A DNA stretch of 64,000 nt. Origin: Margaritispora aquatica (lineage: Eukaryota > Ascomycota > Leotiomycetes > Helotiales > Discinellaceae). Positions 19,700 through 60,322 of the stretch are shown piece by piece. The stretch covers positions 1 to 64,000 of the forward strand of contig VJWN01000011.1 of the NCBI GenBank assembly GCA_007644065.1. The letters are read 5' to 3'. Positions within the stretch are counted from its first letter, which is position 1; each line of letters opens with the position of its first letter. Below the pieces are notes generated by a model, which saw only the letters and a program-made list of their open reading frames with translations, ran no database searches and was not told where the DNA came from. The position numbers and the translations under genes are program-made.

Positions 19700-20400
19700 G
19701 ATCCAGCTGAACTAGCTGTAGCGACAGCTTCTTTGCAGTCCAGTTGCTCTTTTTGTAGCACAGCAACCAGTACTTCTATTGCATCTCTATCACCAGCTTC
19801 CTCGATAGCAGCTGCACCGAACCTAAATCTTCTCGCGGGTGGTGATTTTGAAGGCTGCAACGGATGGACATTGTATGGCTAGACTGTTTCCTACAGCAGA
19901 TATACTGAAGATATGCCGGGCTATTTTGGGGATATAACGGCAGATCAGGTTGGCGCAACCGCAATGGCTGATGCTACTGCGGCCCAGAGCTGATCAGGGT
20001 AGCCCCATTTCTTCGTTAATTTGCTGTCCCCCAACATATCTTGCCAAATCCAAGCTTTTCAATGGGGAAAGAAACTCACCAATACTTTCCCGCAATCTCT
20101 TTAAATTGGGGTCCTTCGATCCAAACAGCCCATTCGGATACCAAATGTATCAATGAGTATCCCTGAGTGAAGGCACCTTCTCCGTCTATATCATAACAGA
20201 TACTCCATCCCTGCTCACTGACTGCACTGTCCAGATCGGTGGTGGACTGAACGGCCGCAGTGGGAACCTTATAGGTTAGGTTAGCAGCGAATGGACCAAG
20301 TTGGAATGGAGATTCACTGCGCTCGTAGAAGGGCAGGATGATATGATTATCACAATGTTTGGTTGTACGCAAAGCGCTACCATCTTTTAGGCAGTGCGTA
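19700..20400 (-). pseudogene. Unrecognised coding remnant, spliced
   Basis: On the minus strand an open segment at about 20076-20400 reads like true protein ('LPFYERSESPFQLGPFAANL', later 'ISLVSEWAVWIEG'-like residues) and ends at a plausible GTGAGT donor. Downstream, short in-frame pieces such as 'WGYPDQLWAAVASAIAVAP' and 'AAAIEEAGDRDAIEVLVAVL' also look coding, but I could not join them into one frame or find an ATG start. Either a multi-exon gene with unusual splicing or a decayed one. Family not recognised. Confidence 0.3.
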
Positions 20401-24520: not shown

Positions 24521-26600
24521 ATGGGCGACCTTAGTCTCAGCAACCGACACATTGTAGACGAGATGTCTGGAATTATTGTTGCCCGGAATGCGGATGGTCA
24601 CGAAGGTGAGTTCTCAACCCAAAATTTCTCCCTGTCGCCTTTCTAATATTCATGTAGTGCATGTACAATGTTGCTGGGATGTCAATGATACCATTACCGT
24701 TGATACTTCTAATTCGACCTTGTGGCAATCCGTTGACATCTTTTTCACCAAAATATCAAAACCTCTCACTCTCCCGTCTTTCAAAGGCATGGAAAATATC
24801 CAACTGCTGGTCGAGCTTTGTGAGAATGAGCACCACCAGCTCAAACCACTTGATTTCGGATCTACAGAGGCGTTCGCTTTTATGCTCAGTTGCATTTCAA
24901 GCGCGGTCTATGAGAATGAAAGTTTCGCGAGAATCATTGTGCCCAAATCCACGGGGTACATTGTCCGTTCCGACATTATCCCCCTACGTCTGCTAGATTG
25001 CCAATTAGTGGATAGCGTTGCGAGCTTTTCAAAACCGCTTCAATTCTTCCAAGGTGGACCCATCGGTGTCGAGAACTTGCGAGGACTTCCAAACGCCTTC
25101 AGAGCATCCGTTGGAGGGTTACTCCTGAAACCGACCACTCAGACCGGCAGTGACACGATCGAATCTCTGCGAAATTTTCTTGATCTCGAATTGCAGAATC
25201 GGCTGTCGTTTCCTTGGCTGTCGGAGCAAGTACTGAAACCTCAAACCTTGGCTATTGTCGATGGCGGCATCTCTGGCCCAGATCATGGTGGCACGGGAGG
25301 TAGCATTTACACAGCAGCAGCCGCTCTGGGTATTGACATGGTCGTATTCGATAGCCCTAATCACTGGGTAAATGGTCCACGATATTGCCACTGGCGGAAA
25401 GCCACTGTTCCTCTCGAGTGTCCGCTCGAGCCCGAAGCCGACTTCGTGGGTAAAATTGTGGATGCGGTGCGCTCGTACAAGGGTCAGATTGATGGCATTG
25501 TGACGTTCCGCGACCATTACAAGCTCTTCGTTGCGGAGGCCGCTTTGCAGCTCTCATTGCCGACTTATCCTCCTTCAGCATATGATATCGCCACTGATAA
25601 ATTCAAGACCAGTGTCTTCGAGGGACACCACGCATATCGTGCTTCTAATGCAGAGGAGGCTTCCAATATCGTGCAAGAGCACAACCTGGAGTTTCCATTG
25701 ATCATAAAACCTACGAATGGATTCCTCTCCGAAGGCGTGTTCAGAGTTGAGAACCTTGCGCAACTCAAGGCCGGTGTGGGCGGCATCAATACTGAGCGAC
25801 ATGGCAAAGATTTCGTGATCGAGAAGTATTGTGAAGGACCAGAAGTTGATGCAAACTTCGTCCTTTGCGACGGGGAGTTGTTATTCTTCGAGGCATCCGA
25901 TGACTTTCCCAAGACGGGAGATGCTAATAGTCAAGGGAACGTCCACAGCTTCATCGAGCTGGCGAATGTGCTCCCATCCAAGCTTCCGGATTACGAGCTT
26001 GCCATTCTTCGAGACTCCCTACATCAGAGCCTTCTTAGAATGGAATTCCATGATGGATTCTATCACCTCGAAGCCCGGGTTGAGAATTCAAGCATGGAGT
26101 ACACGACGACCAATAACGTCCTTGATCTGACCGAGCGCTCCGTTCCAGCCAAAGGAGCACCATCTGCTTGGTTAATCGAGGTCAATCCACGACCACCGGG
26201 AATCCAGGCTTCGGATGCGGTAAAGCATACCTATGGTCTTGATTATTTCGGCCTCGCCTTGCTGTTTGCTGTCAACGACAAGCTTCGGGTCAGGCAGCTT
26301 TCGCATCCTTGGGCACAAGGGGCTCAGTACTGGTGCGAGATGGTGTTCATCCCCGTCGAAAAAGGCGGAGTATATCAATCTGGAAACATTTGTGTGGATG
26401 TCCTTGAGAGGCGTCCTGATCTTGCAGCTCATGTCTCTGGCAGCTTCTGCTTTCTGAACAAGGGAGATGAAGTGAAAGATCCTTCGACCGGGATTAATTC
26501 TTGGGTGGCGTATTTCATTGTTTACTCTCGAAAGAGCCGAGCAGATGTGTTGGAAATTGCGGATTGTGTAAGGCGCGAGGTTCAGTTTTCGATTGTGTAG
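24521..26600 (+). CDS. ATP-grasp amide ligase 1
   Basis: Two exons (24521-24605, 24658-26600) give 675 aa; the start ATG follows 'ctattccag' and the phase-1 intron position is shared with ligase 2. ATP-grasp features: nucleotide-binding lysine in 'FPLIIKPTNGF' (about residue 379), 'KYCEGPEVDANFV' (about 418-430), metal-binding 'HLEAR' (about 500) and 'WLIEVNPRPPG' (about 533-543). Enzymes of this type form an acyl phosphate from a carboxylate and ATP and then an amide bond, as in carnosine synthase or L-amino-acid ligases. The N-terminal 300 residues are a poorly conserved pre-ATP-grasp region. It is divergent from the AAA+ gene and convergent with the halogenase. Substrates unknown; a dipeptide or aryl-amide ligase is inferred. 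Confidence 0.85.
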
Positions 26601-26977: not shown

Positions 26978-30517
<3,540 letters not shown>

Positions 30518-32560
30518 TTATTCGATAATTGGCACCCATTCTTCGCGAATCTCCTCTATCTTCCTGAGTAGCTCCTTTCTCCCCGTGCTACTTTCGACGA
30601 GCAAGCATGCATGGAAGCTTGTCTCTACCGCATCCGGGGAAACAACGTATTCGCCCGGCTCATAGTAGTTGCGATATATTGAGATGCTGTTCATCAGAGA
30701 TGGTTTCCTCTTGGCTAGAGCGATGGCAGGATTCTCTGACTTGAGTATACCACCTTTCTCAGGCATAAGACTGAGAACTGCCATGCACGGCTGGACTTCT
30801 GGGGAGAATGGTACGGCGAGGGCCCTGAAGCGTTTCTCGTCCATGACACACCGAAGCACATGGAGAGCGTAGTAATCTACACCATGTGTCCATGTGGTTG
30901 CGTGAAGGGGGAAGTATCCAGGAGGACGAGGGTTTACTTCAATCATGAAGGCACTTGGCTCGCGATCTCGGGACTGGAGAGATTCCTCAATCACAAGATC
31001 GATTGTGCCTTCACTTTCGACATACTTGGCTGTCGAATTCTTCACCCGGGCTTCACAGTGAAATACCCCCGTGTGGAAACCCATGCGTGCCAGTGAGTCT
31101 CTTAGACGGCTGAAGAGCATAGCTTTCTCATTCTCGGGGATTTTAGACGGGAACATTAAGACAGTCTCCTGGAAGTCGGTTTGCCCTGTCTTGTCACTCA
31201 TGTCTGCATTGCAAGGGAAGTCGTCAGAAATGTTTCCGAACACAATGTCGCCATTCCAGAGAGCAAAATTAACGTCAACTTCCGGCCCATCGATGTACGG
31301 CTCCACCAAAACCCGAGATTGGATCGGCGTGTCACCAACATGCCCCAGGACTTTAGAGTGGGCTTTGCGTACCGCTGATCGGAGTTCTTCCTCGTCTCGT
31401 GCTTTTGTTACACACAAGCTGCTCCATCCCGTGCATGGCTTGACGACGATGGGATACTCGATATTGAGAGGATTCTCGGAACTTCGAAGCATTCGATCTA
31501 GCTCATTGTAGTTGTCCACGGAGAATGAGCTATTTGCCTCAGCTTCCAGCATGCGTGAAGCGTGCTTATTTGTCGCGATGGAGAATGACAATGGAGAACT
31601 CGTAGGAAGTCCAAGAAGCTCGGCAGCATGAGCGACTTGGGTAGAGTAGACATCGTAACGAGTGAAGATTCCATCCAGCTTCAGGCCCTTGGCGGCATTT
31701 ACAATGCGTTGTGTCAGTCCGTCATCGACATTAAGGTCGATTGGGTGGAAAGATTCACGCAAATACGCCAGTGGTCCTTTCGGGGAATGCAAAAAGTGCT
31801 CTGGCCGGTCAAGGATCACTAGATCGACACCAAGACATCTAATGGCTTCATATGTAAGAAGCTCGGGTGGTGGACAGTGCACGAGAGCCACTCTTTGTCG
31901 TGGGATAGGATCTGGTAGTAGGAATTCGAGGGCGAGTCGGTAGCGAAATTCATTCTCTAGAACTTCCATCGCATGGCCAACAGTGTCAAAGTCGGATGGA
32001 TTGACCAATACAGCGCCGATGCAATTTGAAAGGATATTGTAAAGCTGCTCAGGTTCATGTCGTGGTTTCTGATTTGGGAAATGCTCTATGAACTCTCTTG
32101 GCTGCAAGAAACCAGACGTAGCATCTGATACGGTGCAGCCATGCATCCGTAGTTCTATAATGTCCGATCTGGCAACGAAACCATCTTGAGCAGGCAAGAT
32201 CAATTTAATTCCAATTGGAGTTGAGGCCGGGTTCTTCTTGAGTGCATGGGAGATGAACGCCTTCACTGTGGAAGTGTTGGTCCCCAATCCTTCGCGAAGA
32301 TTATCAGGCCAGATGAACTCTGTTACGCTCCCTGTTTGTAAATCGCCAACGTTTGCTGTTGGTTCAATAACAAGATCAACGGTTTTGCAAACAAAGGCTT
32401 CGTAGTGATCATTGAATCGCCATTGAAATGAGAAGGTTGAGGCTGCTAAATACTTAGGACGCGGCAGACAACTCAACTGAGTGATGGTGGACTAACCTCG
32501 ACTTTCTCCATCTGGACTAAAAAGTGAGTCGATTACACCCCAAGTGACTTGAGATATCAT
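30518..32560 (-). CDS. ATP-grasp amide ligase 2
   Basis: Two exons (32497-32560, 30518-32442) give 662 aa. The long frame has no ATG near its start; the first exon was found upstream and joins through a 54-bp phase-1 intron at the same place as in ligase 1 (after a DGxx motif). Motifs: 'YPIVVKPCTGW' with the nucleotide lysine, 'YIDGPEVDVNF', 'FHCEARV' and 'FMIEVNPRPPG'. The organisation and C-terminal 'LMPEKGGIL' stretch mirror ligase 1 ('IPVEKGGVY'), so the two are paralogs of moderate divergence and opposite strand. Likely a second amide-forming ligase of the same pathway, acting on a different substrate pair; this is inference. Confidence 0.85.
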
Positions 32561-39205: not shown

Positions 39206-40225
39206 TTAACCCCATAGCGCTGGCGTTGCAGGATTTATTATTGAGCCTGTGTATACCAAACCGTCTTCTCGGTCTTTCTCCAGAGGCAAAACGCCATCGA
39301 GGTCAACATACTCACAATACTCTGCAAGGAGCAAAGACGGCGCTATCGCCAGCGAGCTGCAAGCTCTACAACCTACCATGACTTTAAATCCCAGAAGCTT
39401 GGCCTTCTTAGCGACTTCAAGAGCCTCCGTGAGGCCGCCTGTTTTGTCAAGCTTCAAATTGACTCCATCATATCGATCGCGTAGATCCTCAAGACCCTTC
39501 CGATCGTGCACGCTCTCATCAGCGTAGATAGGAATCGGGTGTTCGAAGCCACGCAGTGCATCATCAGCACCAACTGGAAGAGGCTGCTCGATCATCTTGA
39601 CGCCCAATTCAACGCAGATCGCCAGCAATTCGGGCATGTCTTCAGGCTCCCAAGACTCATTCGCATCAATGATCAGAGTCGCAGACGGCGCTGCAGCCCG
39701 AACTGCACGGATTCTTGCTTCGTCTTGCTTTCCGCCAAATTTGACCTTCAACAACGGCCGTGCTGCCTCGCGGGCAGCACTGGCTTTCATGGCGGCTGGA
39801 GTGTCGAGAAAAAGAGTGACTGCTGTTGTAACTGGAACGGGCGCGGAGAGGCCAGCGCGCTGGAAAGCGGAAATTCCAGTGTATTTTGCTTCGAGGTCCC
39901 AGAGCGCACAGTCGATGGTGTTACGTGCGGCACCAGCCGGTAGAAGGGTCTGCAGATATGCTCGGTCTGGATTGTTCTCGATCAAAGGCGCCACCGAGGC
40001 AATAGTTGCGAGAACGCTCTCTACCGACTCGCCATACCTCTCTGAGGGCACTCCCTCACCTCGGCCTATGGCGTCGCCGAAGCTCAGTGAGACTGTGACG
40101 ACTTCTGCTTTGTATTGAGTGCCGCGAGCTATGGAGGATGGGATTCTCAGAACAAAATCTTCTGCTTGAGCGTGGAGCTTTGCGGCGGGCAACAACCTAT
40201 TGGACTGTTGCATATTTTCGTTCAT
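39206..40225 (-). CDS. Dipeptide-epimerase-like enolase-superfamily enzyme
   Basis: Single exon, 339 aa, ATG at 40225. Residues of the L-Ala-D/L-Glu epimerase group are all present: base pair K160/K162 in 'LLKVKFGG', metal ligands D188 ('IIDANESW'), E213 ('MIEQPLP') and D236 ('YADESV'), second base K258 in 'NLKLDKTGG', and the C-terminal substrate-specificity segment 'DLDGVLPL' (308-315). These enzymes invert the alpha carbon of an L-Ala-L-Xaa dipeptide or related N-acyl amino acid through an enediolate. In bacteria they serve peptidoglycan recycling; a fungus has no such pathway, so a biosynthetic substrate made by the ATP-grasp ligases or NRPS is a reasonable inference. No targeting signal. 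Family call strong; substrate unknown. Confidence 0.87.
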   Translation of the reverse strand: MNENMQQSNRLLPAAKLHAQAEDFVLRIPSSIARGTQYKAEVVTVSLSFGDAIGRGEGVPSERYGESVESVLATIASVAPLIENNPDRAYLQTLLPAGAARNTIDCALWDLEAKYTGISAFQRAGLSAPVPVTTAVTLFLDTPAAMKASAAREAARPLLKVKFGGKQDEARIRAVRAAAPSATLIIDANESWEPEDMPELLAICVELGVKMIEQPLPVGADDALRGFEHPIPIYADESVHDRKGLEDLRDRYDGVNLKLDKTGGLTEALEVAKKAKLLGFKVMVGCRACSSLAIAPSLLLAEYCEYVDLDGVLPLEKDREDGLVYTGSIINPATPALWG

Positions 40226-41537
40226 ATTTTCGTACTTTTAGATGTTTGCACCAAGCTACAGGTGACAGATTTCATGAAAGTAAGCTGAATGAATAGTCAG
40301 TGTACGTGCCTTCTCAATTCCATTCTCCTGGAGATCATGCAAACACCCGAATAAACTCACCAATATCTGAAAATATACCACGGCAAGAAACTAGCCTTTC
40401 GGGATAGGAATTCCTTTCGTGTGAGAACTCTTCATCAACGCAGAATAGTTATACATACCCTATTCATGCACCGTACATTTTAGGGTACTTTCGTATTGCA
40501 AACACTAGGATCTCACCTAGCCTTGCTGGTTCGTGACATTGCAGAAGTGAAAACTTCCAAACGGAACTAACCCAATTAAGCATCTTACGTGGAAAGGTAA
40601 GCAGGTCAGGTATATAAGATATCGTACGACAAAAGAACGAGATGATTCCCCTACAGCTGGGATTTAGAATCCACTCGTGACATGCAAAGAGGTGGCACCG
40701 GGGGGGGGGGGAGGGGGGAGTGGAGAAAATGGAGAAAGTTGGCTCCACATGTAGGATGTACTCCGTAGGATGATCTCCGTAAATTAAACCTTGAAATAAT
40801 ACTGTAGCTGGTAGTAGCAAGGATACCCTACACCGATAGGTACACTCTCCGAAGTGTACGAAAACTCGGAAACACTTTGGTATTTTAAATAAAAATTCAA
40901 CTTATTCTAACACATTTAACATTACTCTTATACATACTGCGATAAAAATGCAGCCAAGCCTTCTAGCAGCTTCGGTATAGCAAGGGTATGTTGACCAATA
41001 ATCCAATCAGATTCGATGAAATACTACCTATATAGGAAATATCCTCCTAAAGTCTCGACTGCATTACTTCCCCGGTATACAAGTAAACGGGGGTAGAGGT
41101 GCCTAAAGCTCGCTAAGGCACGTCACCTACCTATTTGAGACAGTGGAGCCCACCTGGGCAGTGGTTCGTCCCGACCCCTGATTGATCCCGTCACTGAGCC
41201 GAGGCAGCTGATGGCATCGCGATAGTGGCTTACTGTGCGCAATCTGGCTGTTCTCCAGAGGTAGGGCAGGGTCAGGGTCAGGGTAAGCTTCCAGGGACAG
41301 TACGCCGTCAGCTTCCAGTGGGCTTGGCATGGCTTGGCACGCGCCCTTCATCCCGTATTCGCTTACATCGTCAATTGCAAACCAACGTCCGTTGACAACT
41401 CACCTGGATCAAACTCACCAACTCACCAACTCAACCTTCGACAACCTCTTCACAGTTTCGACGTCAAATATTGAGGTATCGAAGAGTCTGATTGTGCTTT
41501 TGCATACAGACTGTCGAACTATTGCGACATCAGCAGC
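40226..41537. promoter_or_regulatory. Divergent region (epimerase / MFS) with repeat fragment
   Basis: 1.3 kb between two divergent genes. It holds a poly(G) run at about 40699-40711, the dispersed repeat copy 2 at 40988-41085, and 'cagggtcagggtcagggta' near 41267-41285. Probable core promoter of the MFS gene lies in 41330-41537 (pyrimidine-rich, 'caccaactcaccaactcaac'). Confidence 0.4.
40988..41085 (+). repeat. Dispersed repeat, copy 2
   Basis: Same order of blocks as 15425-15525, e.g. 'gaaatactacct', 'aggaaat', 'ctccta' and 'ggtatacaagtaa'. It sits inside the otherwise gene-rich cluster, so repeat material has entered it or pre-dated it. Confidence 0.5.
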
Positions 41538-43332: not shown

Positions 43333-45319
43333 TGCACTATCAAACATACAAATAGACAAACACAAAGCTTCCTTCTTGCAGTGCAAAACACATCACATAT
43401 CTACATATTGAATAATGGTAAGATACGCAAACCGCATTTCCTAACATATTGTACTGACTTGGAAAAGAAACAGCATGATAGTGTGCGAGGACTATTAATC
43501 AACCTTGATAGTATTTGGGACACTCTACAAATGATTGATTGAGGTCGGAGTTAGAATGAACCAAATTGGATGATATAGAGTATTGTGGAGATAAATCAAT
43601 TGAAGGAAGAGGTGTCATCGATCTTGAGTTGGGGGGGGGGGGGGGGGTTTGCGTAATATATATGAATGAATCTTTACAATTTCTACATATCATTTTTGTT
43701 CTCGTAACTGTGTATTTGGTATAATTAACCTGAGACCGCCCGTCCTTATGGTCCTCAATTCTACCATATCCTAGGTTCTGCAGACCTCACTTAACAAAAC
43801 ACTTGCTTATTTTTCAATTTGACAGATAGTGGAAAAAACTTTGAATCCATAATAACATGAGATTTGCACAGATCATTCAAAGGCATTCCTTCTGGGTTTT
43901 TTTTCTTCTTTTTTTCTTCGCAGCTCACTACCCCTTCTCCAATGTTGTCAATCTTCCTGCCACCTCAATCGTTCAACCTTGCTCTGTGTAAGAGACAGCG
44001 AGGCGCAGCAGCGATCGCCACTCAGCATGACCTTGACAGTCATGGGGGTCCTACCAATGCCTACCAATGTTAGGTTCTCAAACGACAGGAGTGTATATAT
44101 CATGCATATACCCCACTGTACATCCAAACACAACACACAACAATAACGTACCCTTCCGCCAGTGAAACATACGAGATATCCCTGAGGCCGTTTCCCTCAC
44201 CTGCATTCGTAGCTCCCCCGCTCGGCACTTCAAACAGTCATTGGCCCTTTATGCACAGTTGTGGGTGATCCTGAAGCTAGGCCCTTTGGAATTGGCGCTC
44301 CGAGAAAATTCACATTCCATCCGACTACTAGACAGTGTTGAATTTCATAGTTCTATTTAGTTTCACATCTTAAAAATCTGGGTTGACAGTAAGCTAATCT
44401 TCATAAACGTAATTAAATTTGTAGTTACAGCGATAATTCCCCCTTATGTACGCTTTTTGTCCATAAGTTTAGAAGTATATATTATAAAAAATTGATTTCA
44501 TAGACATTTCTCGAGACTTTCCGCTGTTTTATTCTTTACAAAATTTATATAAGAGTATTATAATCTTATAAGTAACTAGGTTTGTTGAATTTTTTTTTCA
44601 CATGGTCTAAAGAAGAAGTATATTTTGAAAACTTTTAGTTTATTTTTTAGCCTATGGTTACCCTCTTAGAGGTTAAAAGTAAGCCTTACGACACCCCGGG
44701 ATTCTTGCTGGAGAAATTCCACGCGATGCCTGTCGATCTTCATGTCGGAATCGCTGTCCTTGAGCTTTCACAACCCCTGTTGTCAAGCCACATCAGGAAC
44801 GGTGTGAGATGTCTTCCAAGGATCTCTTGCCTTACCTCGGCAGGAAGTCGGAGTGCCTGTCGTGCATAATGCCCATATTTTTCAAACAGTGAGATTGTAA
44901 GACGAGTGGATACAAATCTCCCATCAGCTGATCTGTACATGCGCTCAGATTTCCTGGTCGCGCAAGCAGGATGCAAATTTTGATCATGGGGAATCCTCTG
45001 AATGGGTCCTTGTACGAAGGAAGATTCCACAGTCTAATAGTTCTGCCAAATGATTCTCACTTCCTGCCACTTCGAGGAGTTACTTACGAAAATCCAAAAA
45101 GAGAAAATCTTGTATAAAAATACTAACGGAGTCCGACGATGTTACCATCTCGTAAATAGTGGACCCACTGTATATGTACTCAGTATTCAGATATGCAACA
45201 AGTAGGCGACCGTTCTCAGTTTACTTATTACAGTAGAAGAACGGAGAGTTGAATGTCTCGTGATTTTGTCTCTCTTCCTTGTAGACTTTGCAAACCATCA
45301 ACGTCACCAAAATTTGAGA
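43333..45319. other. Long intergenic region between MFS and NRPS
   Basis: 2 kb. A G-run lies at 43631-43647 and a T-run near 43898-43916. About 44330-44650 is AT-rich. A 96-codon minus-strand frame at 44740-45030 reads protein-like ('QALRLPAEVRQEILGRHLTP') but starts at a non-ATG codon and has no family I recognise; it may be a gene fragment. The NRPS promoter should lie in 45030-45319. Confidence 0.4.
44740..45030 (-). pseudogene. Possible gene fragment, unrecognised
   Basis: Open frame ending at a proper stop, with balanced composition unlike the AT-rich sequence on its left. No ATG at its start, no domain recognised. Could be a terminal exon whose partners were lost, or chance. Confidence 0.22.
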
Positions 45320-48171
45320 ATGCCCACAATGGTTGATGATACAACACCCTCAGAAGAGTTGGTCCTCGAGTATTGGGAGACCTTCCTGCAGAACTTCAAG
45401 CCGTGTCACTTCCCGACACATCATAATGAGCTCCCTGCACTTTCAAACAATTTCCAAGAAACCACTGTCGACTGTGAGACAAATACCCTAACTTTTCAAG
45501 ACTTCTGTTCCCGGCAAAATGTCACACTTGGAAGTCTTTTCAGAACCGCCTGGGCCGTTATTATCAGCTATTACGCTGGTGTTGAAGACGTCTCTTTTGG
45601 ATACTCTAGTGGTGAGGGAACGTCACCAACGGATGGCGAGCTCGACAGAATCTTCATCTGCCGGACACAAATTACAGCTGAGAGTGTACTGCCACAAGTA
45701 GTTAAGGTGATGAAGAGAAACTTCGATGACGCCTTGGTATATCAAGAATACCCCATCACAAAGGTTCAGAAACTTCTGGGGCCTGGAATTCTGCTACCAT
45801 TTGACTCCAAGCTTCATATTCAGAGTGTTGGGGGATTCAATCTGGATGGCTCTGCGATTTCCACCCATGGAATGAAGGTTGTAGACTCATCAAAAGTAAG
45901 AATCTCATCTTATCAGCTCCAAGTTGATTTAAAATAGACAAAGCTAACAAAACTACTCAGTATGATATTCTAGCCAGAATACTGATCAAAGATGATGGTT
46001 CTATCGCAGTGTCTATTCGTACACGCACGTCCAAATTCTCCGCCTCTCAAACTGCCAGTCTTGCCCATACCTTGGTCAAAACAATGTCTGAGAGCATCAA
46101 GAGCCAATCCCAAACCATGATCGGAGACCTGGATATCTTCACCCAGCGTGATTATCAGCAAATCATGAGCTGGAATAAACGCCAGCCCGATGCCGTGGAT
46201 TCTTGCTTTCATCAGCTTTTCGAAGAGATCGCTCGAAAAACGCCAGACGCTGCAAGTATTTGTTCATGGGATCGTAACTTCACTTATCACGAGCTCGACG
46301 AGGTTTCAACGAAGCTAGCAAACCATCTGGTTGGTTTGGGCGTAGGCCCGGAGTCGCTTGTTCTCATTTGCTTCAACAAATCTTCGATTGCGATTGTCTC
46401 TTTGTTGGCAATATTCAAGGCTGGTGGTGCTTTTGTAGCAATGGATCCTTCGTATCCGGCAAGCCGCATCCAAGCTATTGCCACAGCTACGAAAGCCTCG
46501 ATAGTCGTTGCCGAGCCAGCGCAGAGTCATCTGTTCGAGGGTATCGTGGAGCATATCGTCTCTCTTGACCACAATTCAATTGAAGAGCTGCCACTGGCGC
46601 CTAGCAAGGGCAGCGATCAAGTACAACCATGTCCATCAAATACAGCTTACGTCGTTTTCACTTCAGGCAGTACTGGAGCTCCTAAAGGAATCATGGTGGA
46701 GCATCGTGCTCTTTCCACTGCCGCGATTTCCTTGTCCGGGCCAATGCGAGTGACGGCAAAGTCCAGATTCTTGCAGTTTGCCGCGTACACTTTCGACCTC
46801 AGCTACGGTGACATCTTCGTGACACTCTCACAAGGAGGATGTATTTGTATACCATCTGAGCACGAAAGAGTCAACGAGCTCGCAGCAGCAATCGTACGAA
46901 TGAATGTTAATACTGCCTGTCTCATACCCAGCGTGGCTCGTATTTTCCAACCTGAGGATGTCCCATGCCTCAAGACCCTCTTGGTGGGTGGGGAAGCGCT
47001 TGTACAGGAGGTCCTCGACCTCTGGGCCACAAAGGTTGATCTTGTTCAAATGTACGGACCTTCTGAAGCTACAATCTGGTGCACTGCACAGCCTCTGCAG
47101 AGACCTGGCAGCGCAGCTAATAACATAGGACGAGGCCTCGCAGCGCTTCTCTGGATCACCAGTGTCACAAGTCACGAGCGACTCTGCCCAATTGGATGCA
47201 TCGGTGAGCTGCTCATAGAGGGACCTGTGCTGGCTCGCGGCTATCTCAATGCCCAACAGACCGAACTCGCCTTCATCGAGAATCCCAGCTGGGCAGAGGT
47301 CAGCCCTGGCCAACGTAGACGGTTCTACAAGACCGGAGACCTTGTACGGTACGACGTAGATGGCACGGTGAGGTTTGTCGGCCGCAAGGATACGCAGATC
47401 AAGTTTCATGGTCGACGTATCGAGCTGGGAGAGATCGAGTACCATTTGTCCTCGCACGACCTGCTTAGACAATCCATGGTCACCTTGCCCTCCAAGGGAG
47501 TATACTCTCGACACCTTGTAGCAATTATAGTCCTCAAATCGAGCAGCAAACCATCTGGAGGTGGCTTGGGTCAGATGAAGTTGATTACGGATATTTCTAA
47601 AGAAAAAGCTGCCTCGGATATAGCGAAGGTCAAGGACTTTCTATCCGTGAAAGTCCCGTCTTACATGCTCCCTCAATTTTGGGTGGCAGTGGAAGAGATT
47701 CCCTCAATGATTTCGGGAAAGATGAACAGGGTCGTGGCCAAGAGCTTCGTGGAGAGCTTGACGGAGGGCGCTGCCAAAGAGATCGTCAGTAGCAGCAGAA
47801 AAAATACCAGCCGCGAGTTTCATGATACAATGGAAATCCGCCTCCGAGATATCTGGGCCCGGATCCTGGATAAAGAGATCAAAGATATCTCAGTCGATGC
47901 TAGTTTTTTCGACCTTGGAGGTGATTCATTTTCGGCGATGGAGCTCGTCGCCAGCTGTAAATCAGAGGGTTTTGTTCTCACGGTGCAGGATATTCTAAGC
48001 ACCACCACGATTCGACAGATGGCTTCGAGTATCAAACTTTCCACTCAACCACGCGTTGATGGACAGGTATCTTGCAATACCCAGGATCACTCTGCTACCT
48101 GTAAGGTATTGAAGTTCGCACCCAGTTGGTGGGATCCTGGTTGCACACCTGTTGCCACCGAGCTTATGTAG
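45320..48171 (+). CDS. Single-module NRPS: partial C - A - T
   Basis: Two exons (45320-45895, 45961-48171) give 928 aa. Residues 15-260 are only a condensation-domain C-terminal half: it opens with 'LEYWETFLQNFKPCHFP' and no HHxxxDG motif is present or found upstream. The A domain is complete: 'VFTSGSTGAPKG' (A3), 'QMYGPSEATIW' (A5), 'YKTGDLVRYD' (A7), 'RKDTQIKFHGRRIELGEIE' (A8) and 'SGKMNR' (A10). By alignment to GrsA I read the pocket as roughly D-L-G-L-L-G-M-I-W, which I cannot match to an amino acid. The T domain has 'DLGGDSFSAMEL' with the phosphopantetheine Ser. No TE, R or E domain follows; about 75 residues trail. Partial C domains at the N terminus are common in fungal initiation modules. 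Likely loads one amino acid for transfer elsewhere. Confidence 0.88.
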
Positions 48172-48796: not shown

Positions 48797-51700
48797 CTAT
48801 GGCGTGGTACATTTAGATATTGGGGTCAAAAGCTCCTCGAAGACAGCAGCGAGAGACTCGAACGCTTGAGTGTCAATTTGATGATGGCAAACGACCCGAG
48901 GACCATCTAGAGTGACACCACGTTTCTTTGCTGTCTCAACGAGTGTGGTTGATTGAATGCTAGCTGCTTCGAGGTCAAGCCAGACCAGGTTCGTATCGAC
49001 GGGCTTGCCCAACTTCCCGCCTCTCTTCGTCCACTCCTCAGCGACTCTCTTAGCCAGCTCATGCACTCGACCAAGAGTTGGGCTCTCGATCTCTGCGCTG
49101 GTTCCGAAGTTCTCAAAGAGCGCTTCGCGTGCAGCAGCTGTCATGACCCCAGCTTGTCGCAACCCACCACCGATCCCCTTGCGCGTTCTTCGCATGTGCT
49201 GGATCAACTTCGCATCTCCGAGGACCATTGCACCCATGGGCGCACCCAGGTTCTTACTGAAATCGACAGACACAAGGTCAACAAGTGTACAATATTCTTT
49301 GAGCGTTCCAGCACCGGCTGCGACTGCTTCGAACAGTCGTGCTCCGTCGAGATGGGTCTTGACTCCGTTCTTTCTGGCCCAGTCTCGGATGCGGCGAAGC
49401 TCATGTACAGGAATAATGACTCCCCCCGTGGTGTTCTCCATGGATACAATGCCGGTGGGACATTTGTGAATATCATCGGTGAGAATAGCATGTTTCTCCA
49501 AGTCCTCCACCCGCAGATATTTACCATTGGAAGGTTGGACGGGTTGCGCCATCCCACCGCTGAGGATTGATGGCCCACCACCCTCGTAGTGGATGGCATG
49601 AGATTCGGAATGGAATAGGATCCCACAGGGTCTCGTAGTTACCAAGGCATGTAGACAGAGTTGGTTTGCCATTGTACCAGTGACCACGAACATGCCAGCT
49701 TCTCGTCCGGTGATATTAGCAACATGAGCCTCGAAGTCGAGAGTCGTCCGGTCCTCCCGGAATACATCATCCCCAAGAGTCGTCTCCACTATGGCTGCAA
49801 GCATGCGAAGACTTGGACGGCTAACCACATCGCCTGTGAATTATGAGCCTCTTTTGTCTAAGCTATCGGCGACGGGGAATTACTCACTCCTGAAGTCGCT
49901 TCGGGCAGGGCCTGGACGACCCCATTCGATTGATCCATCCAAAGAACGAAGTGCCTTCACGGTAGATGGCTTAGCAACCTTGGGACTTGGAAGTGACTTG
50001 CACACCCCATTGGTCACCCCATTGATTACTCCATTAGTCTCAATGTGCTTTCCCAAAACTTTATGCGTTTCAGATTCCTCGATCTGCTTCAGAGCTTCGC
50101 CGAATTTCATCTTCAAAATATGCTCGTCTTCCAAGCCGACACTAATTCTGATTATATGCTTCGCCATTCCCTGCGACTCTGCCCAGTCCAGCTCGAAAGC
50201 GTGTGCAAGCTGAGCATAAGGTAGCACGAGGGTAAAATTAGTCCCAAAACTAGGGCCTTTGCACAAATCCACTGCATTGTAGAACTTGATGGCAGCGTCG
50301 GGGTTTTTGAATACGAAGCTGATCAAAGATCCGTAACCTCCGTTTGGGCGCCGAAACTGTTCGTAGAGGGGCGCGCTGGCTACCATGGTAGGGTAGGAAA
50401 CGCAGGAGATTGAATCGTGGCTCTTGAGGAAGATGGCGATTGCTAGCGCATTCCTGCTTGCTCGTTGAACACGAGCTGGAAAGTCGAGACAGTTCTGAAG
50501 AAGCACATTTGCATCAAGAGGAAATAAGAGATCCTCGTGCACACAGCTAAGTTTTGTCCGCAAACTTTCGTAAAACGGAGAGTTGGCGTTGAGAACAATG
50601 CTGTAAGGTACGGATTAGCTTCTTAATAGCAAATCGTATGGATGAAGAGCGTGAGTTTACCTCCCTGCCATGACATTACATGCTCCGCTGAAAATCTTGG
50701 TGAGACTTGTGATGACGAGATCGACATAGGGCAATACATCCACGTTGATAAAGGTACCAATCGTTTCGTCACAGACGACAACGAATTGATATTGATCTGC
50801 TAGCTGACGGATACGACGCAAGTCCGGTGTAGCACATAGCGGGTTTGATGGAACTTCACAGAAAAGACATGCAATCCTATGACCAGATGCTAGTTTGGAT
50901 TCCAATTGATCTAGTTCTTCTGACTGGCCTTGGGAGAGGAACGTAAAGCGCTCGTACCCGCTTGTCTGGACACACTTTGGCGTCGATCCGTACGGCCATC
51001 TAGACTACATAGTCAGTCTCGGCCTCAAGCCTCCACCCACATCAATCTGGGATACAACTTACCCAAATACCACCGCCTCAGAGGCATACGTGGAAGAAGG
51101 GACGAGTTGCCTTGCCACGGTACCAATAGCACACATTCCTTTGGGGTAAAGAAAAACGTCGTGTGACTTCACTGGGTTTCCACTCTGCTTCTGAGGCGTA
51201 ACAAACTTTGCGATTAGCGCCTTGAGTTTGTTATTGGTGGTGCTGGCATCAAAATGATCCCAGGATGCTGGAGGAACCTGCTCAAGGTCACGAGACGTGG
51301 CACAAGTTTGCAAAGGCGAGTCTTGCGCTACCGAGTGCATGAAGGGAAACCTGTTGAGGCAGAACTCTGCATGTCGACTGGAGATGCCATCCCCCATGAA
51401 GCCCCAAAATTCCCTGACGGAGTCCGTCAACTGTGCTGGAAAAAGTACAACATAGAAGCGAGCCCATGTCGCATTTTCTTTCGATGCTTGCCCTGCTAGA
51501 CTGAATGACACTTCCTGGATTGGAAATGCCATTTCATCTGTGGTTTTACGAAGGTGCCCACTGCATCGCTTCATAGCATCCTCAGAGGGGAAAATAGCAC
51601 AACGTGTGTTTTCAGCGGCATTAACTCGTTCAAGTACAGCCTCATTTAACTTCTGGACGCATGCGTGTTGGTAAAACCTAGAGCAGAGAGTAAGACACTT

Positions 51701-51834
51701 TTGTTTTCAGACTTATAAAAAGCACGGGAGGAGTTCTCTTGCCTTGGATAATCGCTTTGCAATTTCCCGTGGATTTTCTCATCGCCCGCCATATAATCCA
51801 CTATGTTGTCCCATGTTGGGAGGGAAACACTCAC
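48797..51834 (-). CDS. Fused PLP enzyme: cystathionine-gamma-synthase-like + threonine aldolase-like
   Basis: Five exons (51743-51834, 51063-51677, 50661-50999, 49888-50600, 48797-49833) sum to 2,796 nt, exactly 931 aa plus stop. The first intron is GC-AG. Domain 1 (about 1-560) resembles the fungal STR2/met-7 cystathionine gamma-synthase type: start 'SVSLPTWDNIVDYMAGD', 'VVVCDETIGTF' with the pyridine-binding Asp, and PLP lysine in 'ITSLTKIFSGACNVMAG'. Domain 2 is a low-specificity threonine aldolase: 'SDFRSDVVSRPS', 'TLGDDVF', 'KTHLDGARLFEA', PLP lysine in 'VDFSKNLGAPMG'. The DFRSD motif is cut by the 54-bp intron 49834-49887: DFR and the first base of S come from the gamma-synthase frame, so the aldolase cannot start by itself without losing it. 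Expected roles: C-gamma replacement on an O-acyl-homoserine, and aldol/retro-aldol at the alpha carbon. Divergent from the PKS. Confidence 0.85.
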
Positions 51835-53198
51835 GGCCTATGCAATCTCATAAGCTTAAGGTTTAGGATGCCAGCCAGTGAGTACTGGTTTGGCAATACA
51901 CACATGTATGTCCTTTGGAGGTAAAGATTCCCCAAGTGGGAGAGAATGAGGCCCGAACGGAATGGTCATTGCCATTTTCAGTGAATGATAGGTAGGAAGT
52001 GTTGAACCCGAGTGTCTCAGACAAGGAGCAGATAGTCAGAATAGCAAGAACTTTGTGTGAACGTTGTGTGAACGTTCTGTGAACTCAGCATCCCAAGTGC
52101 TGCCCTGTTATATGCAAATACCTTCTCTTAGTATTTTCACTCAGGTGGTTCAAGATCCCAATCCTAGTCCCTCTTTCGCTTACCATGGGAGGAAGTTGAG
52201 TAAGCTATCTAGTTAGTTCTTGTAGCTTACTAAATTCATTCAGAACTAAATTCAAGAAAATATATAGATGTCTTAGTAGTTCTTATTTAATCCCTACAAA
52301 AGCTTTCCCTCCTTCTGCATGGGGGCATGTTTGAGTAGCTTTGCAGGTAGTGGATCTCTGACTGTATCTTTCATCATCGTATAGGGTATGTGTTTTACCC
52401 AAATAGTGATACTTTCCGTGGTGGGGCAGATGCAATGTTGGATTCACCCCCTGAGGATGGTGTCAGATTCCTCCCTTGCCCACCATCGTAAAGTGAGTAT
52501 ATCCCCTGGTCTTCAATCTTACCTCCGTAGGGCTCATCTATCGAGTACCCATCAGCATATAGTACCTACCTTACCTACCTACTCACCGCTCAGGACTTAG
52601 CCGGGTGGGTAAATGCATGGAAGACCGAGGTCTATTAGGCGAACCCTGAAGCGAAATGCACACCCCTGAGTGAACGGAACCCTGGTGGCTACCCTGGTGG
52701 CGTGGCTGCCGGGGACGGATGAGCCCGTCTACAGGTGGATTCAGAGTTTGAGCGCTAGAAAAATTTCATCGTCTTACTGTATCAGTGTATCAGTGTATCA
52801 CAGGCTTCATATGGCTGAAAGTATGGTGTGACGACTTTAGGTAATCTTACTGAACCGACCTAAGGTATAGCTTCTGTATTTACAGTATTTACAGTATTTA
52901 CAGTGACTTCCAGTGATGTAAGCCCCTCTCTCTTACCGATTGGGACCTTCTGGGTACCCAGGTAGGTAGGTAGGTAGGTAGGTAGGTAGGTAATCTTCTT
53001 ACCTTGTTACCTTGTTCCGGCGATGTTTGGAAGCGGCATCTGAAATGTTAATGTCAATGAGCCCTTGTGATTAATTCCCTTCCCTTCAACATAGAAATAC
53101 TTACAGTTTGTCTTTCTCTTTGTTTTTCTGTTCTGACATTCTCCCTCTCCATACATAATACATTTTTGTACATTTTTGAGATACTTAGCTTTGTCGCC
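51835..53198. promoter_or_regulatory. Divergent promoter region (PLP fusion / PKS)
   Basis: 1.36 kb between the two divergent biosynthetic genes. It holds (ggta)n at 52961-52992, 'tacctaccttacctacctac' at about 52561-52580, and short repeats 'agtgtatc' (52783-52800) and 'acagtattt' (52877-52900). A GC-rich patch occupies about 52600-52750. Shared regulation of both genes is plausible; no specific site is proven. Confidence 0.4.
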
Positions 53199-56100
53199 AT
53201 GCATGAGACTCACCCAAGAAATGACTCTCGAGAAGTGGTCTCCCTGTTGTTTGGTCCTCAGGGTTCCATGACATCCGACTCCATGCAAGAAATGCGATCA
53301 TTTCTTCAAGAGAACCCCGACTTAGAATTTCTTTTGAGAGCCATTGCAGAGCTCCCTGCATTATGGCCCGACATTTTGGACGTCTGTCCGCAACTCGATC
53401 GCGTTCCAGGAAGGGAAAAGTTGACTGACCTTTGCAACTTTTTCCAAGGACGCGAACCTTTAATCAACCTTGGAACTATCGACAACCTCATCCTCAGCCC
53501 GTTAGGCGTCATTTCTCAGATAATCGAGTTCTGGAAGCTCAGCCATGGGTTTTGCGGTGGCCCAGCCATTGAAGGGCAATTCTCAGAAGTTCAGGGTTTC
53601 TGCCTGGGCTTCTTGACTGCGATTGCGGTTTCTTGCTCGAGGAATGAGGCGCAATTTCAAGACCTTTGTTGCAAAGCTGTAAGGCTAGCTTTATGCATGG
53701 GAGCTTTGGTCGATGCCGACGCGCTGCAATATTCGGAAGCACAGGATTGTGCAGTGACTATTGCAGTAAGATGGAAGTCAAGTACGCACTTGCAGCATTT
53801 GGAACATACATCGAAACTATACCCAAGAGTCAGTGAAGGAAGCACTACCACAAGTCAAGTCAACAAGCTGATGATAGAAACAGGCTTACATATCTTGTAT
53901 CACCGATCCAAGAACCGCAACATTCACCATTCCCGAGTCGGAATCTGCCCTGTTCATGGCAGATCTGGCCAAGGGCAAAGTACTCTCAATGCCTTTATCC
54001 CCACGAGGGCGATGGCACAACCGGAATAATCTACATGGATTGCAGGCCATCTCAGCCCTTTGTGAGCGTGATGAACGATTCAGGTTACCTAATGCCGATG
54101 CATTAAACAACCCTTTGCTATCTAACATCAACGGAGAGCAGATTAGGAAGGGTGCATTGCATGGCATTGCCCTTCACTCCATCTTGACTGACCAATCACG
54201 ATGGGATCTGATGTTTGACACTTCTTTCGATACAATGAGATCGGCGAGAATCGAGTATCGTTACATCAGCATTGGAGAGAAGGTCAACGTCCCCCGAATG
54301 GGCAGCGAGACCTCCAGTCCTGGATTACCACAAGCAATCGTTAATGGTAGTGAAAATTATGGATCCTGGGATTTGGACGACACAGACCTTCCCTCCCTAT
54401 CATCTTCCACGCAGCGAATGCCGAACGGCTTAAGCGCAGAATTAGACCTCGACCTCATCCCCGAATCGGCAATTGCAATAATCGGTATGGCTTGCAGATA
54501 TCCTGATGCCGACTCGATCGAGGAATTCTGGGACGTGATCAGCACTGGAAAATGCGTGATCAGAGCCCTGCCCGAAGATCGTTTCAAGCCCTCTGAGCTC
54601 GTCCATGAACCACGGGGTCCTTTCTGGGGTGGCTACGTTCGACGGACGGATCTCTTTGATCATCGTTTCTTCGGTATTTCCGGACGAGAAGCAAAGTCTA
54701 TGGATCCTCAGCAACGAATGGCGCTCGCCGTGTATGTATACTCCTTCAGCTTCTGTTGTGAGCTAGATTCCAGTGTTTGAAATCGACTCGGAAGCTCTAA
54801 GACCTTCTAAATGCAAATATCCTATTGTAGATTGATACTGACTTTGAGTTTTGTAGTGCCTATGAAGCCATGGAATCCGCGGGGTATTATGGCCTTCACT
54901 CGGATGGATTTGACGAGGATGTAGGATGCTATCTTGGTTCAGCGAACGATGATTACTTTGACAATGTCCATTCATATCCGGTGAATGCTTTCTCCCTCAC
55001 CGGTACTCTAAGATCGTTCATCAGTGGTCGAGTGAGTCATTGTCTTGGGTGGACTGGGCCCTCAATGGTTATGGACACGGCATGTTCTGCTGCTGCCGTG
55101 GCTATTCATACCGCTTGCCAGGTGAGTTATACCCTACTGTTTTAGCCTCAATTACTAAATTTCTAGGCACTTCAAACAGGTGATTGCTCTGTTGCCGTTG
55201 CGGGAGGGACTTGTTCCATGTCCAGTGGCAGGATGACCCAGAATCTTATCGGCGCCGGCTTTCTCAGTCCTACCGGAGCGTCCAAGGCCTTCGATATAGA
55301 TGCTGATGGTTATTGCCGTGCCGAAGGAGCAGGCGTCGTAGTATTGAAGTCCCTGAAGGATGCAGTGCGGAACGGGGATTTTGTCCTCGGGGTCATCACC
55401 GGTTCTGCCGTCAACCAAGGCAGAAATGATACTCCTATCATCGTGCCAGATGGACCATCTCAATACTCTCTTTATCAGAAAGTCCTAGCCAGGGCCGGAA
55501 AGAGCGCTGCAGATGTTACCTACGTGGAATCTCACGGGACCGGAACGCAAGTTGGGGATCCGATCGAGTTCAGGAGCATTCGGGAGGTATTTGGTGGACC
55601 CCATAGAAAGGACGACGTATACGTTGGCAGCGTCAAGGATAACATTGGACACACTGAAGCATCGTCGGGAGTCGCATCACTGATAAAGACGATATTGATG
55701 ATGCAGAACAGGACGATACCAAAATTAGCCAACTTCAAGCGGCTCAATCCCAAGATTGAGCCACTAGGGCAAGATCACATTCTGATACCAGAACAATCGA
55801 GAGAGTGGAAAGCCGATAAACGCATCGCGATGATCAACAACTATGGGGCTGGAGGCAGTAACGCTGCCATGATTGTTGAAGAATGGGCATCGTCTCCTCA
55901 AACTCGACCCCAACTTTCTCATCTTCCCATATTCATCTCTGGCAAAACACCCGAAGCCGTTCGCTCCTACTGTGACCTTCTGAGAGCATCCTTGAGTGGA
56001 AAAGACTTGGTCGATATTGCCTACAACTTATCCATAAAACAGAACCGAGATTTCGAACACTCACTGATCATCACAACTGCTGGAGTCCAGGAGCTTTCTA

Positions 56101-59100
56101 GTCAACTTGAACAGGCTGCGGCTGGTACTACGGCGCTTCAGAAGATTCCAAGGCAGAAACCATTCGTCGTTCTCTGTTTTGGGGGCCAGGACGGGAGGAT
56201 GGCACATATTTCCAAATCGTTGTACGATAACAGCGCTGTTCTACAACACCACCTAGTAAGTGGAATTGCCACTCGGTTCCCTTTTGGATGTGGCCCTAAA
56301 TATTGAGCCCTCTCAACTTTTTTCATTCCTGAGTAGAAAGATATTTGGTTGCTAATTTGATTCTCCTTGTAGGCCGAATGCGAGTCAGTCCTAACGGAGC
56401 AGCTATCTCTTCCCAGTCTGTTTCCAGTAATCTTCGAGGCATCTCCCATCAATGATATCGTCACACTCCATTGCGTCCTCTTCGCGATTCAGTACGCGTG
56501 CGCCAAATCATGGCTCGATTGTGGTGTGAAGGTCGATAGGCTCATCGGGCACAGTTTCGGACAGCTGACTGCCCTGTCTGTCTCTGGAACTCTCTCTCTT
56601 GCCGATGCGATCAAGCTCGTCTCGGAGCGCGCAAAACTCATGGAGGCATATCTCGGCTCCGAGAATGGTCTCATGTTGGCCGTTGAGGGCGAAGCGTTGG
56701 ATGTGGATCGTCTCCTTGACCTCGCTGCACAACAGTCTCACCACTTTGAATTTACTGCCGAGATTGCATGCTATAATGGACCTCGTAGCTTTGTTATTGC
56801 GGGCAGTGAGAGCTCAATTCAAGCCATTGTGGAAGCGTCAGAGACCGTCTCAACCACTTTCCGATTCAAGCGTTTGGAAAATAGTCACGCATTTCACACC
56901 CAACTTCTTGATCCAATACTTCCTCAATTCCTCGAAGCAGCTAACAACGTCCAATTTCTACCACCTCAGATTCCCATCGAAGCATGCTCCAATGAAGACG
57001 ACTGGTCTAAGATCACTGCAGAGAAGATTGTCCGACATACTCGCATGCCTGTCGACTTCATGAGTACTGTCAGAAAGATTGAACAGCAGATCAATGAGCC
57101 TATCACCTGGCTGGAAGCAGGATCAGGGTCCCCAATCGTACCCATGATTAAGCGTGCCGTCAACTCCAACTCCAACTACAAACATACGTACATTCCCACT
57201 GCTCTCCAAGGCTCACAGGGCCCAGCCAATCTCACCAAGGCCATTTGTCGTCTCTGGTCGAACGGCGTGAGAGCGCAATACTGGCCGTTCCATCGCTCCC
57301 AGCACTCGTCATATACTTGGATCAATCTACCTCCATATCAATTTGCCAAGACAAGTCATTGGCTAGAGTACAAACCTCGGGTTGCAGTTGTTGAAGCACC
57401 TTCCACTGCAACTGCTTCTACAACCACGCCTGTGAGCTTGGACCTGGTTACACTTCTTCCCAATCAACCTGGCCAGAGCGAAACGCTTTTCGAGGTCAAT
57501 CCCAATCATGAGCTTTACCAGCTCAACACAAAAGGACATGAAGTTGTTGATCAAACTCTCGTCCCAGCTTCGTTGTACAATGAATTTGTCCTCACGGCCT
57601 CGCGGATGCTGTCGAATACTTCGACAGGGTATGTACCGCACATTTCTAGCTTGTCAATGTCCTCGCCTCTGGTCGTAAATCCCGTCGGACGAGTTCTGCT
57701 GAAAATGGTGGATAAAAGCCTGCAACCAGGAGCATGGGATTTCATCCTGTGCACACAAGCCGAGAATACCGATCCACTGACTCATGCAACTGGATCCATC
57801 TCCATTTCGAATCCTGCCATTCCCGTGTCCATCGGTCATTTCCAGGCTCTCCAAAGCCTTATGCTTCATCGGTGTAAAGAGATCGAAAGCTCTCCTTTAT
57901 CAACCGGTTTCAAGGGTCCTACTGCCTACCAGGCTATGCGTCGGGTGGTGACCTACCTTGATTACTATCACGGCATCCAGAAAATCTTTGCTCTGGGCAA
58001 TGAGGTGTCCGCATATATCACTATGCCACCTGCACGACCAAGAGGCATGGGAGTCGGTTTCTGTGATCCAGTCCTTGTCGATAGCTTCACTCAGGTCTCC
58101 GGCATTCTCGCCAATTGCTTCTCACTGCCTCAGGATGGCGGCGGTGGTGAGATGTGGGTTTGCAACTACATCAGTGATGTGGTTTTCACTCAGCGGTTCA
58201 TTGAAACCGCAAGGGAGGAGAACAAGACATGGCTTGCTTACTCCAAGTTCGACATACCGACTCCTAAGCACCTGAAGTGCAACATTTTCATTTTCGAACC
58301 GGAGACTGGGGATATTGTGCTCACCATTATGTCGATTGAATTCCAAAAAGTCTCGATCAAGTCGTTGAAGAAGGTCCTGGGGAAGTTGAACGGTCAGAAG
58401 ACCCCAGGTAACAAGAACCCTGTTGAGTGTTCACCCGTCAAGATCAGTTGCCGTCGTACAGAGACAAAAGTTGTGGCCTCTGATCCAACTCTCTCTGCAG
58501 TTGTACCTCAGCCAGCGCAGATCCCAACAGTTGCAAGAGTGACAACAGCGATTACTGCTGGTAATGGCCTAGAATCTCTACAGAAGGTCAAGGAAATGTT
58601 GAGGGACGTCCTAGAGATTCCCATCGATGAGATTACGCCGGATGCATCTCTTGAAGCACTTGGCGTTGATTCTCTGCTTGCCACAGAACTATTTTCGGAA
58701 ATCAACAGCCGCTTCGGTATTTCGATCTCACACTCGGAATTTGCGATGGTCAAAACTGTTCAGGGAATATCTCAACTGATACCCCGATCGAGACAAACGC
58801 CAACTTCCAAGTCTCCTTCAGTTCAGTTTCCTCACTCTCAATTAAGCAGCATACCCGCTGCGATCCAGCAGCAGACAGCTCAGAGACCGCAACTACCAGT
58901 GCAAGACGCACTTCGGCCAGTTCAGAACGCATCTTCACCATTGGAGTTGGTCAGGGAGATGTTAGTTGACGTTCTGGAAATCCCTATCAAGGAAATCGAA
59001 CCAACCGCCCTTCTTGAAAATCTTGGTGTAGATTCTTTGATGGCCACCGAGCTCTTTTCGGAAGTGAACAAACGATTCGGGGCATCAATTTCACACCATG

Positions 59101-60322
59101 AATTTGCCCACGTCTCAACTGTCCGGGATCTTGCCCAGCTGGTCGCCTCTTCGACTTTGCCTCTAGCTTCCACCTTGACACGCCGGCCTACGAGTTCCTC
59201 TGCCGCCACGCCGATCAAGCATTTGACTCAAACTGATATGGAAACGATAGTGTTCGCCGAACGAGATGGCACCGCGCTGTCAGCTGATATATATTATCCT
59301 GAGGGCTACGTCGACTGTGGCAAGGCCCTTCCCATTGGTGGGTGAAAACATCCTTTCTATGTTGTAGAGGAATGAAGAATTGATTTTCATTTTTTCGAGT
59401 AGCTCTTATGATCCATGGTGGAGGACACGTCATATCCACTCGAAAAGATATCCGTAGCGACCAGACTCAGATTCTTCTGAAGTCTGGCTTTCTCCCAGTG
59501 AGCGTCGATTATAGGTTGTGTCCTGAGATCACGATCCAGAGAGGAGCCATGCAAGATGTCCGAGATGCTCTCTATTGGGCACGAAAAACCCTGCCAACGT
59601 TATCCCTCAGCCGTCCTGATATTAAACCTGATGGAGAAAGAGTCGTAGTCGTGGGCTGGTCATCTGGTGGACATCTCGCCATGTCATTGGGATGGACCGC
59701 TGCATCACTAGGAATCAAGCCTCCAGAAGCAATCCTGGCCTTCTACTGTCCCACGGACTACGAAGACCCCTTCTGGGCCTCACCAAATTTACCTTTTGGC
59801 CAACAATCCATTCCTCCACCTGGGCCAGGCTACAATTTTCTCTACGACGGACTGGCGGATAAACCCATCGTGGGGTACACTCCAGATTCGTCGAAGCGTG
59901 CACTAGGTGGCTGGATGTCGCTCGAGGATCCGCGCTGCCGCGTGATACTCCATATGAATTGGGAGGGCAAGAGCCTGCCTGCGCTCATCAACGGGCTCAA
60001 TCGTACTGGTCCAAGATCTGTCACTAATCCTCCATTCCCGTCCGTCGAGCAGATCCAAGCCGTCAGCCCTCTAGCACAAATCCGTGCTTGCAACTACAAG
60101 ACCCCAACGTTCTTCATCCATGGAACCCGCGACGATCTTGTGCCTTGGCAGGCGTCACAGAGAAGTTATCAGGCTCTAAGAGAGAGAGGTGTATCTGCTG
60201 GGATATCAATCTTGGAGGGCGGTCTCCATCTGTTTGATCTCTACCCAACGAGTAAGAGGAATCCGATTGCCTTGAAGGCGGTGAGTGATGGGTACGAGTT
60301 TCTCAGCAAGCATGTACAGTAG
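53199..60322 (+). CDS. Non-reducing PKS: SAT-KS-AT-PT-ACP-ACP-esterase
   Basis: Six exons (53199-53828, 53884-54731, 54857-55121, 55167-56255, 56373-59337, 59403-60322) sum to exactly 2,238 aa. SAT with GFCLGF at about residue 128; KS from '[12 protein letters not shown]' with DTACSAAA, '[12 protein letters not shown]' and '[12 protein letters not shown]'; AT with '[13 protein letters not shown]'; PT with His in '[12 protein letters not shown]' and Asp in '[14 protein letters not shown]'; tandem ACPs '[12 protein letters not shown]' and '[12 protein letters not shown]'. The C-terminal domain is an HSL-type hydrolase: 'MIHGGGHV', '[12 protein letters not shown]', '[10 protein letters not shown]', 'EGGLHLF'. 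There is no methyltransferase, reductase or Dieckmann-type TE. Expected product: an unmethylated aromatic polyketide released by hydrolysis or transfer. First donor is GTCAGT, weaker than the others. Confidence 0.93.

Follow-up and report, generated by a model that had tools for sequence, protein, structure and literature searches.

Genes of the locus

The window, by which we mean the whole stretch of 64,000 nucleotides of Margaritispora aquatica DNA analysed here, comes from an assembly of a 42.4-Mb genome in 49 contigs. On its minus strand, between 51975 and 48797, lies a gene in which a gamma-substitution enzyme is fused to a second PLP enzyme. Its main neighbours in the window are the following:

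24558..26600, plus strand: ATP-grasp ligase A, an open frame; in protein P0001 of X. multiplex the fused halves are followed, as annotated, by an ATP-grasp part with 65% identity to it
30518..32491, minus strand: ATP-grasp ligase B, an open frame, closest among solved structures to L-amino acid and alanine-anticapsin ligases
39206..40237, minus strand: enolase-superfamily enzyme resembling dipeptide epimerases and N-acyl-glutamate racemases, one open frame
45206..48171, plus strand: part of a condensation domain with adenylation and carrier domains, in two frames, adjoining the fusion gene
53067..60322, plus strand: polyketide synthase pieces with SAT, KS, AT, two carriers and a C-terminal hydrolase

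The two ATP-grasp ligases are 31% identical to each other and both have amino-acid ligases as their best solved relatives, namely the L-amino acid ligase BL00235 and BacD. Reducing domains were sought in the five polyketide synthase pieces and gave no match, so that the synthase at 53067..60322 is probably non-reducing. The window also holds an S9 peptidase, an MFS transporter and an adenylation protein, the last of these 60% identical to the part annotated ahead of the gamma half in P0023 of Ophiocordyceps. Since ligase A matches part of P0001, and the adenylation protein matches part of P0023, the comparison suggests that the ATP-grasp, adenylation and fusion genes travel together. P0023 itself (Ophiocordyceps polyrhachis-furcata, 1159 aa), annotated as an adenylation-carrier protein linked in one chain to the same gamma-substitution enzyme, may be a chimaeric gene model.

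The frame at 39206-40237 scores 420 bits against a cut-off of 400 with the model for N-acetyl-D-Glu racemase DgcA in NCBIfam, whose families are bacterial and archaeal, and the epimerase-like gene has possibly been transferred. A further frame on the minus strand, at 27312-28370, resembles flavin-dependent halogenases, lying above the Pfam cut-off for Trp_halogenase and below the cut-off of the CmlS model; in view of this frame, the cluster product may be halogenated. Positions 1-20000 of the window, which adjoin the cluster, are AT-rich (31-42% GC, against 46-50% elsewhere) and contain three stop-to-stop frames of at least 150 aa. In the 20 kb beyond the window on one side, the large ORFs presumably encode a catalase-peroxidase and general nuclear proteins.

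Structure of the fusion gene and its recurrence in other fungi

Exon joints were picked by splice signals and by the sequences of relatives, which gave a gene of six exons encoding a protein of 956 aa. Its parts, all on the minus strand, are as follows:

51904..51975, minus strand: exon 1, with the ATG at 51975; its product is MAMTIPFGPHSLPLGESLPPKDIH, and a similar stretch is found in P0012 and P0014
51743..51837, minus strand: exon 2, AVSVSLPTWDNIV...YPR, with the conserved motifs SLPTW and YPR
51063..51677, minus strand: exon 3, gamma-substitution half, with the motif LYPKGM (Y233)
50661..50999, minus strand: exon 4, gamma-substitution half, with D338 and the PLP lysine K362
49888..50600, minus strand: exon 5, a single uninterrupted frame with the end of the gamma half, the linker and the N-terminus of the racemase half
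49973..50071, minus strand: approximate seam zone within exon 5, about residues 551-583, including NGVINGVTNGV
49834..49887, minus strand: intron 5, of 54 bp, which splits DFR-SD at a position apparently common to stand-alone racemase genes
48797..49833, minus strand: exon 6, TOXG-type alanine racemase half, with D774, R777 and the PLP lysine K805

The five introns measure, in order, 66, 65, 63, 60 and 54 bp, and the second (51742-51678, minus strand) reads as GC-AG, that is, with a GC donor. The initial annotation had proposed one coding frame in five exons from 51834; the single frame stands, and the gene has instead six exons and begins at 51975. The GTG at 51834 was rejected as the start, because the TAG that closes the upstream frame is part of the acceptor and the ATG exon at 51975-51904 precedes it. 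The exon 1 product, ...PLGESLPPKDIH, runs on into AVSVSLPTW, which may be compared with the start of the relative P0012, ...PLGESLPPKNVHAVSVSIPTW.

That two PLP enzymes share one chain, as had been claimed, was borne out. Of the four upstream pieces searched with Pfam, two matched Cys_Met_Meta_PP (PF01053); the final exon matched Beta_elim_lyase (PF01212). Both sets of PLP motifs are intact: K362 and K805, and D338 and D774, are all present in the 956-aa protein. From the motifs in which they lie, we take the two lysines to be the PLP lysines and the two aspartates to be the PLP aspartates. The 54-bp intron at 49887-49834, with its GTGAGT/CACAG ends, was likewise correctly recognised at the outset, in that splicing restores DFRSDV and read-through leads to a TAA at 49882-49880. 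The fusion is confirmed as real in the sequence.

The split DFRSD motif had also been regarded as the junction of the two halves, and here the annotation has to be revised. Exon 5 already encodes the N-terminal stretch proper to the racemase half (PSTVKALRSLDGSIEWGRPGPAR), after the end of the gamma-synthase and with no stop, which places the seam in that exon at about residues 551-583, the bounds being drawn from stand-alone proteins. The seam lies some 85-185 bp upstream of the split motif, in uninterrupted coding sequence with no in-frame ATG, and there is no methionine in frame from residue 538 to residue 622. Named stand-alone relatives start with the same stretch and apparently have the same intron, which is why the intron was rejected as the seam; the stand-alone relative P0141, for example, begins MPEFLDSPKSVKPSTVDVLQSLTGTIAWGRPGLARNDFRSDV, where the corresponding window stretch is KPSTVKALRSLDGSIEWGRPGPARSDFRSDV. 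P0134, which has a stand-alone-like start, carries an insert at the DFR|SD intron site, and the annotated starts of P0129 and P0130 fall just before GDV, as expected of an unspliced exon. The intron therefore seems to be a feature of the racemase gene.

The same two-domain architecture, which the annotation had proposed to seek in other fungi, was found there. A protein-database search with residues 600-956 as the query, under length limits that admitted long proteins only, scored 7993 candidates and gave 11 matches, at least three of which also have PF01053. These three, P0003 of Chaetomidium leptoderma (958 aa), P0002 of Xylaria hypoxylon (888 aa) and P0001 of X. multiplex (1595 aa), are the same fusion, with the same domain order; identity to the window protein is 72-73% over the second half and 63-64% over the first. 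Since three annotated proteins of other fungi share both domains and order, the fusion is not due to chance. The eight long matches for which no PF01053 is listed (with partial domain lists for four) were not counted as fusions; in several of the long matches the aldolase domain is combined with domains of other kinds, which gives them the look of chimaeric gene models. The search with residues 1-600 gave 1439 matches, and among the 120 listed are the three fusions; the best two by E-value among those listed are stand-alone proteins. A fifth case is P0015 of X. digitata (600 aa), in which the gamma half leads into the racemase N-terminus ...NPSTMKALQSLDRSIEWGQPGTARNDFR and the sequence then diverges at DFR. 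The linkers of the window protein, P0001, P0002, P0003 and P0015 differ in length or sequence.

The trees of the two halves bear on the origin of the fusion. In the racemase-half tree two changes are needed among four fused and five stand-alone rows, or three if P0152, whose annotated start lies inside the domain, counts as stand-alone; a single fused clade was not rejected for this half by the AU test (p 0.291). In the gamma-half tree the five fused rows fall together with support of only 72/80. An unfused pair occurs in Arthroderma uncinatum, with the gamma enzyme P0013 and the racemase P0137 both on contigs of 5310634 bases, and because of this shared length the two probably lie on one contig.

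Affinities of the two halves

The gamma half has the PF01053 domain, a long N-terminal region, and the PLP lysine and aspartate. Its best solved relative is CndF (8zif, with 481.5 bits; also 8zij and 8zil), which matches over residues 12-546 including the PLP lysine and aspartate; the second-best is BesB (9aua), with only 134.5 bits and an NCBIfam name that has it act on a chlorinated amino acid. An AlphaFold model was made of P0003 from a 24-row alignment (mean pLDDT 76.7, pTM 0.57, with low confidence at 16-54 and in much of 558-590). It superimposed on CndF with TMt 0.90-0.92 at 42-43% identity, and on threonine-aldolase structures, among the 50 rows listed, with TMt 0.81-0.88.

In a tree of 71 rows, CndF not among them, the gamma half falls in a 15-row clade with support 100/100. 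Its unfused members come from Coccidioides posadasii, Arthroderma uncinatum, Aspergillus flavus and Coleophoma, among other sources, and KGM replaces the TGM of CndF in 13 of the 14 clade rows shown. Nine rows for which a role in methionine synthesis was assumed, several of them carrying the name cystathionine gamma-synthase, are set apart by a branch of 0.9 with support 100/100; the gamma half is 38-40% identical to three of the nine and does not group with them. According to the sections of PMC10367076 consulted, CndF, Fub7 and AnkD act through a vinylglycine ketimine, to which a nucleophile is added. The first half is probably an enzyme that builds an unusual amino acid; with 42-43% identity between CndF and the P0003 model, and KGM in place of TGM, its nucleophile is not readable from the sequence.

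The second half had been called a threonine aldolase, an assignment that comparison with fungal racemases did not support. The tree for this half had 71 rows, made up of 64 of the 120 listed matches, four fusions and three paralogues from the same genome. The fusions and TOXG lie together in a clade of 34 rows with support 100/99 on a branch of 0.48, and the other 37 rows, including the three paralogues (45-49% identical to the window half), lie outside. Besides TOXG of Alternaria jesenskae, which is not the TOXG said to have been assayed, the clade holds a partial Bipolaris zeicola protein and proteins named cocA, aveF and uncE; no papers on the last three were found in the open-licence literature. 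The window half is 77% identical to A. jesenskae TOXG, 74-75% to cocA, aveF and uncE, and 80%, over 289 columns, to the B. zeicola protein. Fifteen diagnostic columns separate the clade (33 rows, the window left out) from the 37 other rows, and the window half has the clade residue in all 15. It shares with TOXG, cocA, aveF and uncE the same N-terminal stretch, but those are stand-alone proteins of 383-398 aa, whereas the window half is fused behind a gamma-substitution enzyme.

With the low-specificity and L-allo-threonine aldolases (1jg8, 3wgb) the half has the fold and PF01212 in common, but it groups with TOXG and lies below the curated NCBIfam aldolase cut-offs, at 180.8 of 312 bits for PRK10534.1 and 218.2 of 230 bits for the GntG family. 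The named racemase P0132 matches the same models, also below their cut-offs, with 190 and 227 bits respectively. Source labels disagree within the clade: among its 30 listed matches (P0129-P0158), seven are labelled threonine aldolase and six alanine racemase, the latter including HC-toxin alanine racemase, cocA, aveF and uncE, and the three closest among those listed, which are metagenomic and 85-94% identical, are labelled threonine aldolase. P0176, P0185 and P0247 are labelled alanine racemase, yet lie outside the clade. The labels therefore do not decide between racemase and aldolase, and it should be borne in mind that the activities of the threonine-aldolase-like rows in the tree were taken from labels alone.

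The extracts of PMC3729494 consulted call the alanine racemase function of TOXG established, stress its similarity to threonine aldolases, and remark that without experiment it would reasonably have been annotated as one. Deletion of TOXG in Cochliobolus carbonum led to loss of the D-Ala form of HC-toxin, according to the extracts of PMC6168864 consulted, where SimB is given as a second proven fungal alanine racemase, only 42% identical to TOXG; racemases are therefore not confined to the TOXG clade. The same extracts include, in the reference list, a title that presents the T. inflatum enzyme as a model of catalytic promiscuity. The second half is thus most likely an alanine racemase that looks like a threonine aldolase; we set the latter name aside in view of the tree and the diagnostic residues, and some aldolase side activity may be present.

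Proposed role and alternative readings

The reading that we favour, and regard as reasonably probable, is that the 956-residue protein is a bifunctional enzyme that provides the assembly steps of the cluster with a gamma-substituted L-amino acid and with D-alanine. The N-terminal half (about residues 1-550) would remove the gamma-leaving group of an activated homoserine to give a PLP-bound vinylglycine ketimine, and would then add a nucleophile at its C-gamma to form a non-protein L-amino acid; the C-terminal half (about residues 580-956), of TOXG type, would make D-alanine. Made together, the two amino acids would probably be joined or loaded by the two ATP-grasp ligases and the adenylation-carrier protein, and then attached to the polyketide product. 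For this scheme we infer both substrates, a dipeptide step carried out by the ATP-grasp ligases, and a protein that stays in one piece.

The two halves might instead act in sequence, as a single-chain synthase whose product is a gamma-substituted amino acid of D configuration, the racemase-descended half inverting the L-product of the gamma half rather than alanine. The product would be passed between the two PLP sites and then to an ATP-grasp ligase of the polyketide-peptide cluster. A two-step sequence of this kind would favour direct fusion, and Arthroderma has the two enzymes as separate proteins, probably encoded on one contig; but 77% identity and all 15 diagnostic residues link the half with TOXG, which is known to act on alanine, and we think the sequential scheme unlikely.

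Decidedly improbable, in our judgement, is a true threonine aldolase half, which would split a beta-hydroxy amino acid into glycine and an aldehyde, the latter being taken up by the gamma half as its carbon nucleophile. The fold, the aldolase type of the Pfam and NCBIfam matches and the labels of the three closest listed matches agree with it, as do those sections of PMC10367076 that describe the fungal gamma-substitution ketimine as taking diverse nucleophiles. Against it stand the position of the half in the TOXG clade, apart from 37 other rows that include its own paralogues, and scores under both NCBIfam aldolase cut-offs, as for racemase P0132. The aldol chemistry first proposed for the fusion lost its main basis once the half was placed with TOXG.

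That the locus holds two separate genes or transcripts, and that the fusion is an artefact of gene prediction, we consider very improbable indeed: both halves do have stand-alone versions, and several long matches seem to be chimaeric models, but exon 5 reads from the gamma half into the racemase half without a break in the frame and with no in-frame methionine separating the two, and the fusion recurs in four proteins of two other genera, Xylaria and Chaetomidium, counting the truncated P0015.

Both kinds of enzyme were already known, and what is new is their fusion, which is present in databases as unnamed or generically named entries. The architecture had been flagged as unfamiliar, and a search of the open-licence literature likewise found no description of it. 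The fusion links two enzymes whose roles were unconnected in that literature, allows the function of unfused pairs in other fungi to be predicted, and, where the favoured supply of two amino acids is concerned, indicates which two building blocks should be sought in the cluster product. It matters also for annotation, given that close relatives of the racemase half often carry a threonine aldolase label, and the fusion protein is of interest as a two-site PLP catalyst.

The pairing of racemase and gamma enzyme is not universal, since the HC-toxin genes named in the extracts of PMC3729494 consulted include TOXG and no gamma-synthase. A plasmid search with a piece of the gamma half gave 249 records, all with less than 60% identity. 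P0016, we infer, comes from the Aspergillus flavus strain AF13, for which an excerpted source locates TOXG on chromosome 4.
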